Origin: Armatimonadota bacterium
Lineage (GTDB): Bacteria > Armatimonadota > Fimbriimonadia > Fimbriimonadales > Fimbriimonadaceae
Assembly (NCBI GenBank): GCA_017303935.1
Contig: JAFLBD010000002.1
Span: 682,001-746,000 of the forward strand
Direction of reading: 5' to 3'
Length of the DNA: 64,000 bases
Shown: positions 54,358-63,464 of the stretch, in pieces
Position numbering within the stretch: position 1 is the stretch's first letter
Layout of the letters: the number at the start of each line of letters is the position of its first letter
Notes under the pieces: model-generated
The model's input: only the letters and a program-made list of their open reading frames with translations
Databases searched by the model: none
Told to the model about the DNA's origin: nothing
Position numbers and translations under genes: made by a program

Positions 54358-54693
54358 ATGGCATCCGACAAACTGAGCCTCATCTTCTCGGCGTTGGCCG
54401 ATCCGACTCGGCGAGCGATCTTGGCTGCGTTGGCCCTCGGTCCGCTTCCTGTGGGCGAGATCGCCAAGCCGTTTGACATCACGGAACCGGCGGTGATCAA
54501 GCATCTCAAGGTGCTGGAGCGGGCTGGGCTTGTGGAGACTGACCGGAAAGGTCAGACTAGGCCACGCCAGCTCAACGCTGCGCCTCTGGCCGAAGCGAAT
54601 AGCTGGGTCGAACAGTATCGGCAGTATTGGGAAGCGAGCTTCGACCGCTTGGATGCCTATCTCGATTCAATTCAATCTGGAGAACAATCATGA
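54358..54693 (+). CDS. ArsR-family transcriptional regulator (module 1)
   Basis: The 111-aa winged-helix protein has the recognition region I-T-E-P-A-V-I-K-H-L-K-V-L-E-R-A-G-L-V. The opening A-L-A-D-P-T-R-R-A-I-L-A-A-L is the mark of ArsR repressors paired with SRPBCC proteins. The cysteines of metal-sensing ArsR proteins are absent, so the signal is likely not a metal. It overlaps the following SRPBCC gene by 4 nt (ATGA). Confidence 0.9.
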   Translation: MASDKLSLIFSALADPTRRAILAALALGPLPVGEIAKPFDITEPAVIKHLKVLERAGLVETDRKGQTRPRQLNAAPLAEANSWVEQYRQYWEASFDRLDAYLDSIQSGEQS

Positions 54694-55190
54694 AATACGA
54701 ACCGTTTGTGCTCGAACGCACATTTAAAGCACCTCTGTCCCTCGTTTGGGCCGCATTGACTCAGGCTGATCATCTGGCCAAGTGGTTTGCACCGCAAGGA
54801 ATCACGCCTGGTCGAAACACGATGGACTTTCGCGAAGGTGGATTCTATCATTACGAACTGTTGACGCCGGATGGGGGAGCATTTTGGGGCCGATGGATAT
54901 TCAGAGAGATCGAAGATCAAAAGCGGATTGTGAATCACGTTTCGTTCTCGGACGAAGGTTGCGGGATTGTTGTGCATCCGATGGCTCCAGATTGGCCGCT
55001 CGAAACTCTCTCCAAGACCTCATTTACGGAAGTAGATGGAGGCACTCGGGTTCGAATTGAATGGTCGGCTATCGGCTCAAATCCGGTCGCGCTCAAAACG
55101 TTTGATGATGGCCGAGAGAGTATGACTCAAGGCTGGGGTGGCACTATGGACAAGTTCGATGCTTACCTTCAGAGCATCCAAGCGTCGTGA
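54690..55190 (+). CDS. SRPBCC (AHSA1-type) protein (module 1)
   Basis: The 166-aa START-like protein has F-K-A-P-L-S-L-V-W-A-A-L-T near the start, W-F-A-P, G-G-x-F-x-Y-x-x, and a C-terminal W-G-G-T-M-D-K-F-D-A-Y-L. The fold has a large ligand pocket, and the ligand is unknown. Start ATG 54690 overlaps the arsR stop; the longer frame lies in arsR. ArsR plus AHSA1 is a common pair in bacteria. Confidence 0.88.
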   Translation: MKYEPFVLERTFKAPLSLVWAALTQADHLAKWFAPQGITPGRNTMDFREGGFYHYELLTPDGGAFWGRWIFREIEDQKRIVNHVSFSDEGCGIVVHPMAPDWPLETLSKTSFTEVDGGTRVRIEWSAIGSNPVALKTFDDGRESMTQGWGGTMDKFDAYLQSIQAS

Positions 55191-55191
55191 T

Positions 55192-55677
55192 CTAGAATCC
55201 CATGTGCCAGTCGTGATCGCCAAAAATCGTCTGGATATATTCGATTTGGCTGACGTGACCTGTAGTGTGAAGGTGCGGGGCGTCTAGGAACGCCCTCGCC
55301 GGCACATCTCCGAGCCCGAAAGGCAGAGCCACGATCTTGTCGAGCTCAGACTCAGTAACGCAGGCATAGTAATCGAGAATTGCTTGCCGTGCACTCAAGA
55401 GGTCACTGACCGCTTGCTCACGTGATAGTGTCGTACGGTTGTTCACCCGAAAAACGGCGTCCGCCTCTTTGCTCGTTGGGATGTGGAATGGCGTCCCTTT
55501 CATCTGCGAGAGAATATTGACCATCGCCTCGCTACAATGCGCGACGATCTCCAAAATCGACCGCGAAGTCTCGCTAGGGCGAAATGTGAGCCGGTCATCT
55601 GGCGTCCTCTCAAGTAAGTTTAATAGCCGATCGGTGACCTGGATCAGTTGAGCGGAGGCGGATTCGGGGCTGGACAT
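55192..55677 (-). CDS. DinB-family protein (first)
   Basis: The 161-aa four-helix-bundle protein has D-R-L-L-N-L-L near the start, S-I-L-E-I-V-A-H-C-S-E-A in the middle and H-T-T-G-H-V-S-Q-I-E-Y-I near the end. The histidines at helices 2 and 4 fit a DinB/YfiT metal site. Such proteins are thiol or metal-dependent transferases. It lies tail-to-tail 1 nt from the SRPBCC gene. Confidence 0.83.
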   Translation of the reverse strand: MSSPESASAQLIQVTDRLLNLLERTPDDRLTFRPSETSRSILEIVAHCSEAMVNILSQMKGTPFHIPTSKEADAVFRVNNRTTLSREQAVSDLLSARQAILDYYACVTESELDKIVALPFGLGDVPARAFLDAPHLHTTGHVSQIEYIQTIFGDHDWHMGF

Positions 55678-55701
55678 TTGCCGAGTTTAGCTGAATCGAA
55701 A

Positions 55702-56166
55702 TTAGTTGTCGTTGGTTTCGTGTCCCATCAGATGTCGCGCCGAGTACATCTGACCGGTGTGATAAGCCACGTGGAATGCCATGTACTCCAGCATTCCGCC
55801 CCATGTCCAATCTTCTCGAATCGGCATGACGGCGGAGAGTTCTGGACGTGATTCAAGGATGTGCGCCTTGCACGCTTCGTGGACGCGTTTGACTTCAGCA
55901 TAGAGTTCGGTGGCGGTCAATTCAAGCTGTATCGGCTTTTCGACTGAGTAGAAGTAATACGCAAAGGCGTCGGAGTTCAGTGGGCTCTCGAAGCTGGGGA
56001 GCATCCATCGAATTTCGCCATACGCGACGTGTGCGGCTAGCTCGCCGACGCTGAGGAGCCGGGGGTGCGGGCGAGTCCATAGGTCTTGATCCTGCAATCC
56101 GTCGAACGCCTCACTCATCTCCCAGATCGCCGTGTCGATAGGCTTGATGGCCTCTTCATGAGTCAT
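55702..56166 (-). CDS. DinB-family protein (second)
   Basis: The 154-aa protein is a four-helix bundle similar in layout to the neighbouring DinB protein. It has V-G-E-L-A-A-H-V-A-Y-G-E-I-R-W in the middle and F-H-V-A-Y-H-T-G-Q-M-Y-S-A-R near the end, supplying the usual histidines. It precedes the first DinB gene on the same strand by 24 nt, probably as one operon divergent from the second ArsR module. Confidence 0.83.
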   Translation of the reverse strand: MTHEEAIKPIDTAIWEMSEAFDGLQDQDLWTRPHPRLLSVGELAAHVAYGEIRWMLPSFESPLNSDAFAYYFYSVEKPIQLELTATELYAEVKRVHEACKAHILESRPELSAVMPIREDWTWGGMLEYMAFHVAYHTGQMYSARHLMGHETNDN

Positions 56167-56225
56167 GGGAGAAATCTACCAGACTCAAGTTGCCGAGAAA
56201 ATCCAGAAAAACTATTTAACAACTT

Positions 56226-56253
56226 GATTATATAACAGTTGTGTTATATAATC
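56226..56253 (+). promoter_or_regulatory. Operator: perfect 11-bp-arm inverted repeat over the arsR-2 -10 box
   Basis: GATTATATAAC (56226-56236), a 6-nt spacer (AGTTGT) and GTTATATAATC (56243-56253) form a perfect dyad. The right arm contains TATAAT (56247-56252), and ATG 56260 lies 7 nt later. Binding there would block the promoter, as expected for ArsR autorepression. Confidence 0.7.
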
Positions 56254-56259
56254 ATATGC

Positions 56260-56589
56260 ATGCAGACGATTGACCTCGATGCACCCTTTGCGGCACTGGC
56301 AGATCCCACGCGTCGCGCAATTTTGGCGCGATTGTGTTCGGGCGAAGCGAGTGTCATGGAGCTGGCGGCGCCGTTCAAACTCAGCCAGCCTGCGATTTCT
56401 CGGCATCTCAAAGTGCTGGAATCAGCTGGACTGATTGCGCGTCGGGTGGATAAGACCCGGCGACCGTGCCGCGTTGTTCCCGATGCGGTGGATGAGTTGA
56501 CCACCTGGTTGACTCAGCTGCGGATATCGCTCGAGGCTAACTATGCACGATTGGACCAACTATTGGCCCAAGAGGATGAAATCAATTAG
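56260..56589 (+). CDS. ArsR-family transcriptional regulator (module 2)
   Basis: The 109-aa winged-helix protein is a paralogue of the module 1 regulator, with A-L-A-D-P-T-R-R-A-I-L-A-R-L and L-S-Q-P-A-I-S-R-H-L-K-V-L-E-S-A-G-L. No metal-sensing cysteine pair is seen. I place the start at ATG 56260, since a frame to 56239 would run through the operator. The next gene begins 2 nt after its stop. Confidence 0.9.
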   Translation: MQTIDLDAPFAALADPTRRAILARLCSGEASVMELAAPFKLSQPAISRHLKVLESAGLIARRVDKTRRPCRVVPDAVDELTTWLTQLRISLEANYARLDQLLAQEDEIN

Positions 56590-56591
56590 AA

Positions 56592-57059
56592 ATGGAACCA
56601 TTAAAGATACGTTTAGAAGGGGACACCCAAGTTGTTGTCACTCGTCGATTCGCGGCGAAGCCTGAGGCCGTTTTCAGGGCACATACCGAAGCGGAATTGA
56701 TCAAGCAGTGGATGCTGGGCCCAGACGGTTGGACGATGCCCGAATGCATCAGCGAACCGTTCCCGGGAGGCAAAACAAAGTTTGTGTGGGCCAATGATTC
56801 CGGGGAAAGTTTCTCGCTAACCGCAGAAACGATCTCAATCGATCCACCCCACAGGATTGAGCACGTTGAACGGATGCACTTGCCAGATCCGACGCCAGAC
56901 AACCACGTTGTGACGACTTTTGAAGCCGATGGCGATGGCACTTTGATGACAATGGTGATGACCTTGCCGAATTCCGAAGTCCGCGAGATGATGCTCTCGA
57001 CCGGCATGGATCAAGGGATGGAAATCAGCTATCAGCGAATGGAACGCGTCGTTCTTTGA
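56592..57059 (+). CDS. SRPBCC (AHSA1-type) protein (module 2)
   Basis: The 155-aa START-like protein has R-R-F-A-A-K-P-E-A-V-F-R-A-H-T, W-M-L-G-P-D-G-W and P-P-H-R-I-E-H-V-E-R. The C-terminal pattern differs from module 1 (E-M-M-L-S-T-G-M-D-Q-G-M-E-I-S-Y), as in the AHSA1 subtype in which the protein ends shortly after. It is coupled to arsR-2. The ligand is unknown. Confidence 0.88.
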   Translation: MEPLKIRLEGDTQVVVTRRFAAKPEAVFRAHTEAELIKQWMLGPDGWTMPECISEPFPGGKTKFVWANDSGESFSLTAETISIDPPHRIEHVERMHLPDPTPDNHVVTTFEADGDGTLMTMVMTLPNSEVREMMLSTGMDQGMEISYQRMERVVL

Positions 57060-57137
57060 ATTCTGACGGTGCCCACTGCATGTGAATGTGGTGGGCACGA
57101 CGTTCCTGTCCAGAATCTGGCATCATTTAAGTTATCC

Positions 57138-59030
57138 ATGCCAGAAATCAACAGTGCTTGGTTTGCTGGACCAAAAGCCGAAAACGCCGATTGGTTCACC
57201 GATCTGTTACAAAAAGTAGCTTGGGATTACTATTTTTGGCGTCGTAACTATTTCCCAGGCGATGGCGCCGTCATCGGCTCAAGCGATCGTCGTCCGCAAG
57301 AAGATTTCCGCGACAATTTTGAAGACCGGCTGTTCGAACTTCTCGGCAAACTGAAGGGCGACTGTCCGTTTCATAGCCCGAGATATGCCGGGCACATGAT
57401 CGCAGAACAAACTCTCCCCAGCATCGCGGGTTACTTTGCCGCAATGCTCTATAACCCGAACAATGTCACGAGTGAATCGGCTCCGGTGACCGTTCAAATG
57501 GAGCTTGAAGCGGCACAAATCATCGCTTCAATGCTAGGGCACGGGCCAGATGGGTGGGCGCATCTGTGTGGCGGTGGGACTGCGGCCAACATTGAGGCGC
57601 TTTGGGTGGCCCGGACAATGTTGTACTTGCCATATCTTGTCGCGGATTTGAAGAAGCATCTCGGCCAATCGGACCAACCAAATCTTCATCAAAACCCCCA
57701 GGATTGCCTTCTTGAACTGGAGAACATCTTTCTAAACAGTGGTACTCCCGAAGCCACGATTCGTCAGTGGATTGCGAAATCTCCTGCGAATATCGCTCAG
57801 TTCGGGTTCTCGGCGGTAGAAAGGTATTTCAATCTTCGCCCCGTTTTGATCGTGCCTGAATCGCACCATTACTGCTTCGATAAAGCCATGGACTTGCTCG
57901 GCCTAGGTCGGGAATCGCTAATTCGGGTTCGGGTTAATGCTGACTTTCGGATGGATGTGTCCCACTTGGCAGAGATTTTGGAGCAATGTGAAGCGGTAAA
58001 TCGCTCTGTTCTTGCGGTCGTGGCAGTGATGGGCACCACAGAAGAAGGCGCGATCGACCCGCTGGAGAAGATTGTTGAACTTCGGAAGAGTCGTGAAATT
58101 AGCGGAAAGAGATCGTTCTGGTTGCACGCAGATGCGGCTTACGGTGGCTATCTGCGGAGCATGATCCTTCCGGAGCGTATCGGGCTCGGGCATTCTGACG
58201 TGACAACACAAATCAATGGTCTTCCAGAGAATATTCAGCTTCAATTGCCCGAAGGGACTGCCTGTGATTCACTCGCTGCGATGGGAGATTGCGATTCGAT
58301 CACGATCGATCCGCACAAGCTCGGCTACGTGCCTTATCCCGGCGGCGCGATCAGTTACAAGTCGGCACGTGTAAAGCCGATAGTAAAGCAAACCGCCCCA
58401 TATCTTGAAGATAATCGTGCCTCGTATAGCGCGGACATCACAAGTGGTCAGATCGGGATGTTTTCGCTCGAAGGGAGTCGCCCGGGGGCAATGGCGGCAG
58501 GAGTCTGGCTGAGCCACAAGTCGATCCCACTGAACACGAGTGGTCATGGCATTTTGATGCGCGAAACCATCCGAAATGCGTGTCTGTTGCATGCGTTGCT
58601 TTGCGCAAAAAAGTCTAAATCGGTGGAAGCTGTGCCCCTTTGCACGCCTGGTTCTAACATCGTCTGCTATGCGTTCCGAGCGAACGGATCGATGGATCTG
58701 AAGTCTATCAATCGCTTGAATCACGCGATCTATGAACGAATGAGTATTAACTCTGCGGATCAAGAGAGCATTCATTCAAAGTCATTTTTCGTGAGCCGAA
58801 CGACGCTAGCGCCAAATCAATATAGTGTGGAGGCCACTCGCGAATTCCTATCAAAATTGGGCGTAACCGAGGCAGAATTTGCTGAATCCGGGGTCTTTTT
58901 GCTAAGAAGTGTGCTGATGAACCCCTGGTATGAACTAGCCGCACAGAAGGGGAATGCTGTTTTGGAACAACTGGTGGACTATCTGTTCGAAAAGGCCGAA
59001 ACTCTACTGGAACCAATGCGGGCGAAATGA
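57138..59030 (+). CDS. PLP-dependent group II decarboxylase-like protein
   Basis: The 630-aa protein has the aspartate-aminotransferase fold. The PLP lysine is K394 in D-P-H-K-L-G-Y-V-P-Y-P-G-G. The cofactor aspartate lies in H-A-D-A-A-Y-G-G-Y, and G-G-G-T-A-A-N-I-E-A-L-W also matches the group II decarboxylases of aromatic or acidic amino acids. Family members are usually 450-550 aa, so this is somewhat long. Start ATG 57138 matches the fold start. Substrate cannot be assigned. Confidence 0.83.
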   Translation: MPEINSAWFAGPKAENADWFTDLLQKVAWDYYFWRRNYFPGDGAVIGSSDRRPQEDFRDNFEDRLFELLGKLKGDCPFHSPRYAGHMIAEQTLPSIAGYFAAMLYNPNNVTSESAPVTVQMELEAAQIIASMLGHGPDGWAHLCGGGTAANIEALWVARTMLYLPYLVADLKKHLGQSDQPNLHQNPQDCLLELENIFLNSGTPEATIRQWIAKSPANIAQFGFSAVERYFNLRPVLIVPESHHYCFDKAMDLLGLGRESLIRVRVNADFRMDVSHLAEILEQCEAVNRSVLAVVAVMGTTEEGAIDPLEKIVELRKSREISGKRSFWLHADAAYGGYLRSMILPERIGLGHSDVTTQINGLPENIQLQLPEGTACDSLAAMGDCDSITIDPHKLGYVPYPGGAISYKSARVKPIVKQTAPYLEDNRASYSADITSGQIGMFSLEGSRPGAMAAGVWLSHKSIPLNTSGHGILMRETIRNACLLHALLCAKKSKSVEAVPLCTPGSNIVCYAFRANGSMDLKSINRLNHAIYERMSINSADQESIHSKSFFVSRTTLAPNQYSVEATREFLSKLGVTEAEFAESGVFLLRSVLMNPWYELAAQKGNAVLEQLVDYLFEKAETLLEPMRAK

Positions 59031-59050: not shown

Positions 59051-59464
59051 ATGTGGTCGCGTAGAACTTGGATAGCGATCTTTTGCACCGTAGCACTGAT
59101 CTTGCAGGCCACGGTGGGATTTGCTCTGTCAATCCAGTGCCTCGTCGATTGCTCGCGCCCCGCACCCGTTCCGACTACTGGCTGCTGCCAGAAAAAGCAA
59201 AAATTGCCTTCTCCGGAGGGCAAGCACCATAGTGATTGCAAAGGGTGCTGTGGAGAAGTCTCTGGTGCCAAGTCACCCGTTTCGGTAGGGCTTCCGCAGT
59301 TTGTTGGCTTTAGCCTACTGAAACTCGCTCCGGTCTCGACGCCGGTGATCGCTCTCAATTTTGATCAAATAGATGCACAAAAGCACCTATTTGCCGGCGA
59401 TTCTAGTCCGCCGACGAGTAGCCCACCGGACCGGATTTCTGGCCGTGCCCCTCCTGTGAACTAA
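59051..59464 (+). CDS. Secreted Cys-rich protein, DUF2946-like
   Basis: The 137-aa protein has a signal peptide (I-A-I-F-C-T-V-A-L-I-L-Q-A) and cysteine clusters C-L-V-D-C, G-C-C-Q and H-H-S-D-C-K-G-C-C. The C-terminal P-P-D-R-I-S-G-R-A-P-P resembles DUF2946 proteins, which often sit in copper-related loci. Metal binding is inferred from composition. It is the first gene of the candidate metal-handling cluster. Confidence 0.6.
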   Translation: MWSRRTWIAIFCTVALILQATVGFALSIQCLVDCSRPAPVPTTGCCQKKQKLPSPEGKHHSDCKGCCGEVSGAKSPVSVGLPQFVGFSLLKLAPVSTPVIALNFDQIDAQKHLFAGDSSPPTSSPPDRISGRAPPVN

Positions 59465-59516
59465 TCGATAACACCCTCTTTTCGTTTAGGACTTTTCACA
59501 TTCACAGGAGAATAAA

Positions 59517-60716
59517 TTGAACCAAATCAAAGCTTTGTCACTGGCGTCGGCCATTTGTGCCGCGTCGTTTTCATCAGCTGTCATGCCTTTGCCAGCATTT
59601 CTGGGCGCACCCGCTCAAACTCAAGTCACTGAAGTCAAGCATCAAAAGTATCGCATCGAGTTGCTTGTCCCTGAAGAAGGAGTATTCGCTGGCGAAGAAA
59701 TTGACATCGAATTTAGAATCACTGACACCACTCAGAAGGATGAGCTGCAAGAAGATCTCGGGATTGCAAACGTCGAGTCATCCGCGGTGGTCACCATGCC
59801 AAGCATGGCGGGGATGCCAGCCCAGATTCCAGAGATTCACCGAGAAGGGATTCCAGGCTATTACGGCATGCCGCTGTTCTTTCCGCATGGCGGCGACTAT
59901 CAGATCAGTCTCAAGCTGAAATTGCCTACAGGCGAGATGATCAACGCAATCTTTCTGATTCTCGTTCAAGATGAAAGGCCCGCCGGAAGCCAGCCCACTC
60001 CTAAGCCGTTTTGGCTGAAGGTACTCGGTTTTCCGGCTAATGCGGCAGCTGGACAGCCGGTCGACTTGAAACTCCGGGTGATCGACCATAAGACAGGATT
60101 TGTCCAAAAGGACTTTCAGACCGTACATGAGCAGAAATTCCATCTCTTGATTGCGAGCGAGGACCTCGGATGGTTTGCCCATGAGCACCCAACGATGGCA
60201 CCGGACGGGACATGGACCTACCGAGCGACCTTTCCCGCGAATGGGAAGTACTTCATTTACGGCGACGTCGCTCCGACCGGTAAGGGGTCGCAAATCTTGG
60301 TTTCCCATGTGAATATCGCCAAGGGACCGAAGCCGAACTGGAATACAAAGTGGAAGGCGAACTTGGGGCCAGTCTTGGTCCAGGGCGTAAACGCGAAAAT
60401 GAGACCGATTGATCTGCCCGTCCCAATCGGCAAGGGAACCGTAGTCGAGATTGCACTAACTGACACCAAGGGGAAAGCGGTTCTGGATACAGTTCCGTGG
60501 CTCGGAGCTGCGGGGCACCTGATGATCTTGCATCGCGACGGCCGTACTGTTGTTCACAGCCATCCCAAGGAAGATGAAGAAGCCACGCGCTTGGCACGAT
60601 TGGGCAAATTTAGATTCACCGCCAGATTTCCGAAAGCTGGGCTCTACCGAGCATACGCCCAATTCAGCCATCATGGAAAAATCAAAACCTTCGGGTTCGG
60701 GATAGACGTTAGGTAA
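59517..60716 (+). CDS. Secreted YtkA-like protein
   Basis: The 399-aa protein starts with TTG preceded by CAGGAG. It has a signal peptide and two or more Ig-like beta domains. Features such as E-H-P-T-M-A-P-D-G-T-W-T-Y and F-P-K-A-G-L-Y-R-A-Y-A-Q-F-S-H-H-G resemble YtkA-like copper-locus domains. Histidine and methionine residues are frequent (M-P-S-M-A-G-M-P, H-S-H-P, S-H-H), which suits copper binding. It is the second gene of the cluster. Confidence 0.6.
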   Translation: MNQIKALSLASAICAASFSSAVMPLPAFLGAPAQTQVTEVKHQKYRIELLVPEEGVFAGEEIDIEFRITDTTQKDELQEDLGIANVESSAVVTMPSMAGMPAQIPEIHREGIPGYYGMPLFFPHGGDYQISLKLKLPTGEMINAIFLILVQDERPAGSQPTPKPFWLKVLGFPANAAAGQPVDLKLRVIDHKTGFVQKDFQTVHEQKFHLLIASEDLGWFAHEHPTMAPDGTWTYRATFPANGKYFIYGDVAPTGKGSQILVSHVNIAKGPKPNWNTKWKANLGPVLVQGVNAKMRPIDLPVPIGKGTVVEIALTDTKGKAVLDTVPWLGAAGHLMILHRDGRTVVHSHPKEDEEATRLARLGKFRFTARFPKAGLYRAYAQFSHHGKIKTFGFGIDVR

Positions 60717-60727
60717 GGAGGACGACC

Positions 60728-61201
60728 ATGAAATTAGTAAAAATTGGGGCAGTTATTGCATTAGTGGCGGCGATTTTGTTCAGCTCGCAACCAGGGCAAG
60801 CCCACGAGGCCGATTGCCCTTACTGCAAAATCAAACTAGTTCAGAATACGAAAGATTCGGACAACGAAGTGGTCGTCAGGTTTGGGAACAAGAGAATCGA
60901 GTACCGGTGCATTTATTGCGTGATCGCGGATCAAGATCGAGTGAAGTCTGATCTGATCGTTTACGCTCCGAGTGAAATCGTCGGGAAGCCTGTTCTGCTC
61001 CGCCGAATCGCTGGCGAATGGACGGGCCCTGAAGGAGCGGTTTACTTGAATCTCCTCAAGGGGCACGAACAGTGCGCAGTTACAGCGCGCGCGTTCACCA
61101 CGAAAGAAGCGTTTGAAAAATACGTCTCGCTCCATAAGCTGGACGGTGCGAAGCCATTGACTCTCAAAGAGTTCGTCGAGGCTGTGAGCAAGAAGGGTTA
61201 A
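60728..61201 (+). CDS. Secreted NosL-like small protein with two CxxC pairs
   Basis: The 157-aa protein has a signal peptide (A-V-I-A-L-V-A-A-I-L-F) and then C30-P-Y-C33 and C61-I-Y-C64. The second half has V-Y-L-N-L-L-K-G-H-E-Q-C, R-A-F-T-T-K-E-A-F and A-K-P-L-T-L-K-E-F. It resembles NosL, the copper-delivery lipoprotein of nitrous oxide reductase, in fold style only. The same double-CxxC unit and the same tail pattern recur at the end of the next gene. Start ATG 60728 has AGGAGG upstream. Confidence 0.6.
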   Translation: MKLVKIGAVIALVAAILFSSQPGQAHEADCPYCKIKLVQNTKDSDNEVVVRFGNKRIEYRCIYCVIADQDRVKSDLIVYAPSEIVGKPVLLRRIAGEWTGPEGAVYLNLLKGHEQCAVTARAFTTKEAFEKYVSLHKLDGAKPLTLKEFVEAVSKKG

Positions 61202-61204
61202 CCC

Positions 61205-62713
61205 ATGAGAAAACTCATTGCAAACAAGCTTCTGGTGATGGCAGGAGTGGCTTGCCTTGCCGCAGTTGGTCTTGCAGAAACAGGTGAGCAGGGCGCGCCT
61301 CCCGCGTGGATGTCGAGTCCTTACTCGGATCACCTTTTCTACAACCGCGGACCTTACAACTTTGCGATTCGAAAATTGCCCAAGTTTGCTGCCGACATGT
61401 ATGGCACTGGGGTCGGTCATGCCATGGCCTATGAAGCCCTAGTCACCGGGCGAGAGCAGCAGCTGGAAAGCCGAGTTTTCGAACAAATCACGAAGGCTCT
61501 GAAGGCACCACCCACGTTGCCGGTGGACGAATCGACAATCCAGCCAACGTTTGCCAAGCGCTATGGTGCGCTCGAAAAGGTCTTCGATTGGGCGCATTTG
61601 CTCCACTTCCAAACTCTGGATGTACTCACATACCGGGGTTGGAACGATGCGCAGAAAGAAGCGGAGCTAGACCGGCTGTGGAAGTTCTACAGCGCGCAAC
61701 CGTTTGCGATTACAGGGCTTCCGATGAACATGGAAGTTCAGGATGGCCAATCCTATTCTGGTGCCTTCCGAAAGAAGTATCCGAAGGTCAATGGTCTCTT
61801 TTGGGGATATCACTGGCTACAGTCGTCGGGTTACGACATGCTGTATCGAACGCCAATGAATTCGCACGCGCCTCAGTATGAAGTGGTTGGCGACGCTTAT
61901 CGACAGACGGAGTTGTTCAAGACCGACCGTGAATTCATGCCGATGATGGGCGAGCTGAGCCCAAGATTCTCCGCGCGGTTCCCCGAGATAGCAAACTCGT
62001 TCGACAACTTGCACATGTTGCATGACAACGTCAACGACATTTTGGCTACGCCAGGGCTGAATCTTGCCGAGCAAAAGCGGCTGATCGATGAGGCAATTTG
62101 GCGCGTTTTGCAATCCACGCATGCTGGGGAAATTTCAGGAGACGGATTGCCCAATTCGCTCCATGATCACCGGGCGGTTCCAGGAATGCCGGGCATGGGA
62201 TGGATGAAGGGCACGACCGACGACGCCATGTATATGGCTGGCATGGGCTGGATGAACATGGAGCAGTGTGGGCATTGCTCGATGAATCTGCCGTCTGGTC
62301 CAGTTTGGGGAGCGACAGTCTCGGCAAACGGATGGACGATGCGTGTTCGATGCTTGCTGTGCGCTCGTGATATGGCGTCAGAGACGTTGGGACGGGCGAT
62401 TATTCGTGCTGCCACCGAAGATCCAGACCAGACTTTGGTGCTGATCTCAGACGAAGAAGGGAACTGGACAACAAGCAATCCGAACGTTGTGTTTCTGGAG
62501 GAAATGGGCGAGCATCCTTCTTGTCAGAAATGGTCGCGGGCGTTCACCAGCGTCACTGCGTTCAGAGCGTTCGTGGCGGACAATCCAGAGTATTCGAACG
62601 CCAAGCCGCTTTCGCTCGCCGAATGGCAGCTATTGAGCGAAGGCAAGACTCCAGATACTTATGAGCGGATCGACAAACCGAGCCCCTATGGCACACGCGG
62701 GGGGACAAATTGA
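61205..62713 (+). CDS. Large secreted protein with C-terminal NosL-like domain
   Basis: The 502-aa protein has a signal peptide. A helical N-terminal part of about 320 residues of unknown type is rich in aromatics (H-L-L-H-F-Q-T-L-D-V-L-T-Y-R-G-W), with a His/Met/Gly-rich hinge around 315-350. The C-terminal domain has C355-G-H-C358 and C383-L-L-C386, then R-A-F-T-S-V-T-A-F and A-K-P-L-S-L-A-E-W. That C-terminal unit is homologous to the whole preceding protein. The start follows the NosL-like stop by 3 nt. Confidence 0.6.
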   Translation: MRKLIANKLLVMAGVACLAAVGLAETGEQGAPPAWMSSPYSDHLFYNRGPYNFAIRKLPKFAADMYGTGVGHAMAYEALVTGREQQLESRVFEQITKALKAPPTLPVDESTIQPTFAKRYGALEKVFDWAHLLHFQTLDVLTYRGWNDAQKEAELDRLWKFYSAQPFAITGLPMNMEVQDGQSYSGAFRKKYPKVNGLFWGYHWLQSSGYDMLYRTPMNSHAPQYEVVGDAYRQTELFKTDREFMPMMGELSPRFSARFPEIANSFDNLHMLHDNVNDILATPGLNLAEQKRLIDEAIWRVLQSTHAGEISGDGLPNSLHDHRAVPGMPGMGWMKGTTDDAMYMAGMGWMNMEQCGHCSMNLPSGPVWGATVSANGWTMRVRCLLCARDMASETLGRAIIRAATEDPDQTLVLISDEEGNWTTSNPNVVFLEEMGEHPSCQKWSRAFTSVTAFRAFVADNPEYSNAKPLSLAEWQLLSEGKTPDTYERIDKPSPYGTRGGTN

Positions 62714-63429
62714 CGCGAATCGCCCTCGTTTTGAGCTTGTGCATGATCGTTACAACCACGTTTGCCAGCGATCATAACAACCTCGATAGCGGCCGGCCTC
62801 TGAGTTTTGATGACGCAAAGACGTTGGCTTATGGAGAGCGCGCGATCGAATTTGGCACCGTTTGGAATCTTCGTGAAGATCGTAGACCACACCTTTCGCT
62901 GATGACGGAGTTCAAGTACGGCATTGCGATGAACGCCGAGATCGGTGTTGGGCTCGCGACACATGAGGACTACGCGCACATCTCGTACTTGCGGCAACTT
63001 CGCCGTGAAACCGATGCTGGCCCTGCACAAGCGTTCAAAATCGAACTCGCATTTCCGAGTACGGCAGAAGGTTCGGGAGTGCAAATGCACCTTCGCTGGA
63101 TCGCGAGTCGCATGGTTGGTGCTTACGACACCATTCACCTCAATTTGGACATGGAAGCCGATTCGATTCACCGCTCTGGCGAATCGAAATTGCGGTTTGG
63201 AGCGACGCTTGGATACCAACGTCCGCTGGGTGCGCCAACTCAATTCCACCGAACTCTCGTGGGAGAAATTGGTTTAGAACCACTGCCGCGGTCTGGTTGG
63301 ACGCCCAATTATGGAGTCGGAATGCGCGAGTTAATCTCTCCTCGGGAAGTAGTCGACTTTGGGATTCAGGCCAGGAATAGGCGAGGATTCGGAGCGACGA
63401 TCACAGCTGGGTACTCGCTATCCTTCTGA
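62710..63429 (+). CDS. Secreted barrel-like protein
   Basis: The 239-aa protein starts with TTG and overlaps the previous stop. It has a signal peptide and then repeated amphipathic strands (E-I-G-V-G-L-A, F-G-A-T-L-G-Y, I-T-A-G-Y-S-L-S-F) ending in an aromatic residue (F239), typical of outer-membrane barrels. It could be the outer-membrane component of the cluster. No family is recognised. Confidence 0.55.
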   Translation: MTRIALVLSLCMIVTTTFASDHNNLDSGRPLSFDDAKTLAYGERAIEFGTVWNLREDRRPHLSLMTEFKYGIAMNAEIGVGLATHEDYAHISYLRQLRRETDAGPAQAFKIELAFPSTAEGSGVQMHLRWIASRMVGAYDTIHLNLDMEADSIHRSGESKLRFGATLGYQRPLGAPTQFHRTLVGEIGLEPLPRSGWTPNYGVGMRELISPREVVDFGIQARNRRGFGATITAGYSLSF

Positions 63430-63435
63430 AAAAGC

Positions 63436-63464
63436 GGTTGCTTGGGGTTAGTCCCCAAGCAACC
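63436..63464. terminator. Terminator between the metal cluster and the ABC permease
   Basis: GGTTGCTTGGGG (63436-63447) and CCCCAAGCAACC (63453-63464) form a perfect hairpin with a 5-nt loop. On the minus strand it is followed by a T-run. The stop codon of the convergent permease gene lies in the loop region (63448-63450). Confidence 0.75.

Follow-up and report, generated by a model that had tools for sequence, protein, structure and literature searches.

A conserved, putatively copper-responsive operon headed by a probable CutF/CruR-type leader gene in Armatimonadota

Five closely packed genes, here called A to E, lie at positions 59051-63429 of a 64,000-nucleotide stretch of contig JAFLBD010000002.1 (the window; C2:682001-746000) from an Armatimonadota bacterium. 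Sequence comparisons support their reading as an exported copper-handling operon, conserved and previously undescribed, because of their gene order, the context of a second copy, a YtkA profile match and a NosL/MerB fold. We consider it likely (probability about 0.7) that the operon responds to copper, with A as a leader that senses the metal and B-E as envelope proteins that bind it or pass it on. A preliminary description had proposed an undescribed metal-handling operon. Our analysis adds conservation and copper to that proposal, but takes A to be most probably a leader and not a structural metal-binding member.

All five open reading frames (ORFs) are on the forward strand: A, 59051-59464; B, 59517-60716; C, 60728-61201; D, 61205-62713; and E, 62710-63429. 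The gaps at A-B, B-C, C-D and D-E are 52, 11, 3 and -4 nt, which confirms the order and packing reported before, down to the slight overlap. The gene order is not unique to this genome: B-C-D-E is kept in 24/24 loci from other Armatimonadota genomes, an effective number below 24 because some loci are near-identical (L040/L043, L041/L051 and L052/L053). Among 291 genomes from the phylum, about 40 contain gene D; the D profile finds matches in 46, but in a few through C-like or partial matches only.

Gene A encodes a 137-aa protein that, from its sequence, is most likely a copper-sensing leader of the CutF/CruR type. We read it this way because it combines an RAPP motif and a Cys motif with a covarying helix that masks the Shine-Dalgarno (SD) sequence of gene B. 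Judged by eye, the N-terminus carries a signal-like hydrophobic segment (residues 8-26) after an RR pair. The cysteines are arranged as C30xxxC34, C45C46 and C63xxC66C67, and the C-terminus reads G-R-A-P-P-V-N. CutF-like leaders are recognized by a PP in the last 15 residues and a length below 150 aa, and A has both. Overall identity among orthologues is 18-25%, and near-invariance is confined to two Cys regions and the (G)RAPP at the C-terminus. Of 24 A-B junctions, 20 encode RAPP: both copies in this genome and 18 of the 22 from other genomes. Of the remaining junctions, L052/L053 lack a leader just upstream, L037 has LAPP and L039 has a frameshifted leader ORF with RAPP in another frame. 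In this last case (L039:4173-4870) the leader gene is broken, yet the RAPP codons and the helix that pairs with the SD are intact. A scan of the window for other RAPP leaders returned gene A alone.

The Pro-Pro codons of this motif are also the anti-SD strand of gene B, and the resulting helix co-evolves. The RAPP codons (CGT GCC CCT CCT, 59444-59455, forward strand) use CCTCCT in 14 of the 21 loci with the motif, though B and D genes use CCT for 17% of their prolines. The anti-SD arm CTCCTGTGAA (59451-59460, forward strand) overlaps the Pro-Pro-Val-Asn codons of A, and the SD arm TTCACAGGAG (59501-59510, forward strand) is its exact complement. Folding of the junction gives z-scores of -3.06 in the window copy and -2.91 in the second copy. 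At -17.1 kcal/mol, pairing is stronger at A-B than at the other three junctions (-6.6 to -11.1 kcal/mol). No Rfam family matches the junction.

The whole-junction MAFFT alignment was poor in the loop, so we used an arm-swap test and a gapless alignment of the arms instead. Across 18 loci, arms pair with their own partners at a mean of -16.65 kcal/mol and with permuted partners at -11.18 kcal/mol (z -8.3; 0 of 100,000 permutations). Arms from different loci thus pair worse than own arms, which argues that the helix is not accidental. In 14 distinct arm pairs, double-change cells numbered 13, whereas shuffles gave 4.6 (0 of 500 shuffles); these loci are related, so the counts are not independent events. 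The covariation score is 0.294, compared with 0.107 when shuffled and at most 0.060 when the partner is slid, which abolishes the signal.

Copper is much the best-supported metal, on the evidence of gene neighborhoods, because a second copy of the operon adjoins CsoR, CopA and a Csp-like copper-storage protein. This paralogous operon lies about 80 kb away in the same genome (C2:817-829 kb). It encodes, in order, DUF305, an A-like leader, a YHS-YHS-YtkA protein (B2, a YtkA protein with two added YHS domains), DUF2231, a cupredoxin-like protein, DUF305, a Csp1/DUF326-type Cys-rich protein, the counterparts of C, D and E (C2, D2 and E2), a CsoR-family repressor and a P1B-type CopA. The repressor has the C-H-C motif and RicR as its best match. 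The genome contains three matches above the copper-ATPase cut-off, and this CopA is the best of them. The statement in the preliminary description that no copper ATPase is present therefore holds for the locus but not for the genome. A full-length CopA also occurs in the examined flanks of 13 of the 24 related loci, and the window copy's three nearest relatives (L034-L036) all adjoin CsoR and CopA. Genes for a CusA-type RND protein and a ZntA-like P-type ATPase (L006:45-4882) converge on the paralogous operon at its CopA end.

Gene B (59517-60716, start codon TTG) encodes an exported 399-aa protein whose residues 40-132 match the YtkA profile PF13115 (E 7.5e-10; 39.8 bits, cut-off 25.9). This upholds the earlier YtkA-like label and is the one metal-related family that passed in our profile searches. 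Domains of this family function in the delivery of copper (PMC13344008). Gene B shares the domain with YtkA/CtaK copper-delivery proteins but carries about 230 further residues, which form His-rich C-terminal domains with conserved motifs. Gene C (60728-61201) encodes a small exported protein of the NosL/MerB superfamily with a CxxC...CxxC...C pattern. It is homologous to the last ~140 residues of D (tblastn E 8e-5), and 9 of 21 orthologues give weak, sub-threshold MerB matches.

Gene D (61205-62713) encodes an exported 502-aa protein of two domains, modeled by AlphaFold with a mean predicted local distance difference test score (pLDDT) of 83.4. Its C-terminal domain (residues ~343-480; 62231-62644, forward strand) is predicted to adopt the NosL/MerB fold and carries C355xxC358, C383xxC386 and H437xxC440. 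The fold, common to MerB and NosL, derives from treble clefs that were duplicated (PMC4999995). In a VIA search with this domain, the best fold match was MerB 3f0o (Z 11.4, rmsd 3.4, 127 aligned residues), with NosL 7og7, from NosDFYL, at Z 8.7 (rmsd 3.6, 117 aligned residues); MerB and NosL entries stood above all unrelated entries. Foldseek E-values are weak taken alone (best 0.049). No PDB sequence relatives were found for C, D or the D N-terminal domain.

The earlier labels of C and the D tail as NosL-like, and of A as DUF2946-like, are resemblances rather than memberships, since no profile passes its cut-off. For NosL, the D tail has the fold and C is its homologue, but no protein in the whole genome, C and D included, scores above the PF05573 cut-off. 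The CxM motif of NosL (PMC6530538) is not conserved: D has CSM in the window copy and mostly CSI in orthologues, and C has CKx. Membership in NosL fails for the D tail on these two counts. The D tail further differs from NosL in having two CxxC pairs plus a further Cys and in being fused to a six-His domain, with no nos genes found. The MerB profile (PF03243) has no match in this genome and stays below its curated cut-off of 27 bits everywhere; the best relative scores 25.5 bits. As modeled, the tail is NosL-like at the level of fold only and forms a separate sequence family, slightly nearer to MerB. Gene A matches no Pfam family, and the best PF11162 (DUF2946) score in the genome, 13.3 bits, is below the cut-off and belongs to a protein other than A.

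The most unusual piece of the operon, absent from the preliminary description, is the N-terminal domain of D (residues ~31-303; 61295-62113, forward strand). It is a duplicated helical domain with six invariant histidines (72, 131, 134, 203, 270 and 273), a putative metal site. Folded alone it reaches a pLDDT of 89.7. Each half has one His on its first helix and an HxxH on its second, and self-alignment supports internal duplication (score 74-110, compared with ~26 +/- 4-5 in shuffles). The six histidines are invariant in 22 Armatimonadota sequences and are also kept in homologues on Gemmatirosa and Methylobacterium plasmids (25-36% identity). No Pfam family matches the domain, and no solved structure matches it convincingly (Foldseek best E 0.75; VIA best Z 4.9). 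The VIA hit, a likeness to G-protein-coupled receptors, was read as a chance helical match, and a new fold is not thereby proven.

Gene E (62710-63429) encodes a predicted outer-membrane beta-barrel ending in GYSLSF. The C-terminal Phe is present in 18 of 20 orthologues, and no Pfam profile matches. On the Methylobacterium and Gemmatirosa plasmids (L058, L059 and L060), the six-His domain and an E-like barrel form a two-gene pair, in which the NosL-like tail is absent and replaced by a Met/His-rich tail. The Gemmatirosa pair is preceded by a gene for a small CxxC protein whose C-terminus is PPPPRA.

A metal ABC-3 permease gene at 63448 converges on the operon, as had been described (PF00950, E 7.7e-23). 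It belongs to a separate convergent operon, which also encodes a zinc/manganese-type binding protein, and a 13-bp terminator-like stem lies between its end and gene E. That operon (porin-like, ZnuA-like and ZnuB-like genes) is headed by a second leader-like ORF of RSPP type with an HHHDH motif (L005:3448-3825, reverse strand; C2 ~748.4-748.8 kb), which starts HHHDHAGTPCSVC and ends SRSPPTLS. Its stop region can pair with the AGGAG of the next gene, in a weak helix (z -1.55). Upstream of gene A, a pyridoxal-dependent (tyrosine-type) decarboxylase gene (57069-59030) ends 20 nt away. Gene A may share its transcript, because no promoter-like site was found between them. Further upstream (54358-57059) are two neighboring gene pairs, each apparently for an ArsR-type regulator together with an AHSA1/SRPBCC-like protein, and DinB-like genes separate the pairs; these likenesses were judged by eye.

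By analogy with known leaders, we infer copper binding, ribosome pausing and a direction of regulation as follows. Leaders of the CutF-like and CruR kinds detect copper while they are nascent chains undergoing export (PMC9973294, PMC9426467). A would likewise be exported cotranslationally, and copper would meet the exposed Cys motif of the nascent chain. The ribosome would then pause on RAPP and occupy the anti-SD strand, which would free the SD of B and allow B-C-D-E to be translated across their gaps of 11, 3 and -4 nt. B, C and the D tail would carry or ligate Cu(I), the six-His domain would be a copper-binding or redox center, and E would be an outer-membrane barrel working with D. The overall role would most likely be to deal with surplus copper in the envelope, by sequestering or oxidizing it and disposing of it, alongside the CopA encoded elsewhere in the genome.

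Among the closest known systems is CutF-CutO-CutG of Rhodobacter capsulatus (PMC9973294, PMC8456105). Its leader, like A, is short and has a Cys motif and a Pro-rich C-terminus; it is exported, as A would be. As at A-B, the SD of the downstream gene is shielded in a stem-loop, and the targets are copper-related (PMC9973294). The operon described here differs in that the Pro-Pro codons form the anti-SD arm, the motif is RAPP, the host is an armatimonadote and the copper response is putative; where CutF has a multicopper oxidase as its target, A would act on YtkA, NosL/MerB-fold, six-His and barrel proteins. Depending on where the anti-SD strand of cutO lies relative to the cutF stop codon, this double use of the Pro-Pro codons may not be unique. 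In the literature searched, we found neither this gene combination, nor such double use, nor the six-His domain, nor a study of copper regulation in Armatimonadota.

Which way the operon responds is the least secure part of this reading, because CruR (bp2923, DUF2946) of Bordetella pertussis carries an identical RAPP yet works oppositely. CruR too has RAPP near its C-terminus and a Cys motif and is the first gene of a copper operon (PMC9426467); unlike CruR, A has no DUF2946 profile match. If A acted like CruR, the ribosome would pause on RAPP without copper and be released by it, so that B-E would be made at copper scarcity and would serve copper acquisition or the loading of cuproenzymes such as oxidases. 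The identical motif, the role of YtkA-domain proteins in oxidase CuA assembly under copper limitation (PMC13344008) and the nearby metal-uptake ABC operon fit this scheme. We think it unlikely, as the short gap with an SD-masking helix resembles CutF and not CruR, which has a 162-nt gap with Rho-dependent termination; the CxxC and RAPP motifs of A (C66 to R132) lie 65 residues apart, whereas the CruR spacing is 45 +/- 2 (PMC9426467); and the paralogue and 13 of 24 relatives lie with CopA, usually with CsoR too. Some of these relatives also bear on whether the window copy was re-assigned to zinc or another metal, leaving the copper role to the CopA-linked copy. The convergent permease with its zinc/manganese-type binding protein and the HHHDH-containing RSPP-type leader would suit such a re-assignment. 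It is nevertheless rather improbable, given that the permease operon is separate and behind a terminator-like stem, that the metal ligands of D are invariant between window copy and paralogue, and that L034-L036 adjoin CsoR/CopA.

Translational coupling helices are common, and A could be an ordinary Cys-rich metal-binding protein with a helix that only blocks independent initiation at B, with no metal sensing. We regard this as slightly less probable still: conservation in A is limited to RAPP and the Cys motifs, CCTCCT is strongly preferred at RAPP, and A has the features used in searches for CutF. By far the least probable is an accessory set for nitrous oxide reductase with D in the classical NosL role. 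The NosL fold of the D tail favors it, but the absence of PF05573 from the genome and the unconserved CxM speak against a classical nos set. A search for the NosZ propeller found nothing, which is uninformative, as its control found nothing either. Mercury resistance was likewise rejected, since no MerB scores above cut-off in 41 genomes and the paralogue contains copper genes; the D tail shares the MerB fold in a context of copper, not mercury.

Several observations weigh against a copper-responsive operon with A as leader. Two loci (L052/L053) have no leader directly upstream of B, and in L047/L048 the B start has no recognizable SD. None of 13 A proteins matches DUF2946 (PF11162) at E<=1. 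No copper gene adjoins the window copy, which instead sits beside a zinc-type ABC operon. On plasmids, the D N-terminal domain occurs without a NosL-type domain and near genes that are not obviously copper genes. CruR, with an identical RAPP, turns its operon off in response to copper (PMC9426467).

CutF-type leaders are known mainly from Proteobacteria and Bacteroidota (PMC9973294). If our reading is right, copper-sensing leader control would extend to Armatimonadota. Co-evolution also gives a clear signal for an arrangement whose regulatory RNA strand consists of the Pro-Pro codons themselves, and one synonymous change with a compensating change could probe the helix mechanism. A conserved six-His domain without a family, encoded beside an outer-membrane barrel, is a candidate new copper-binding or redox module. 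We can offer a fuller picture only tentatively: the domain would be a new fold, present in at least three phyla, whose six histidines, three per duplicated half, hold a copper center; it would work with a dedicated outer-membrane barrel and, in Armatimonadota, be made only when copper is sensed by a leader whose arrest codons are the anti-SD strand of the operon.

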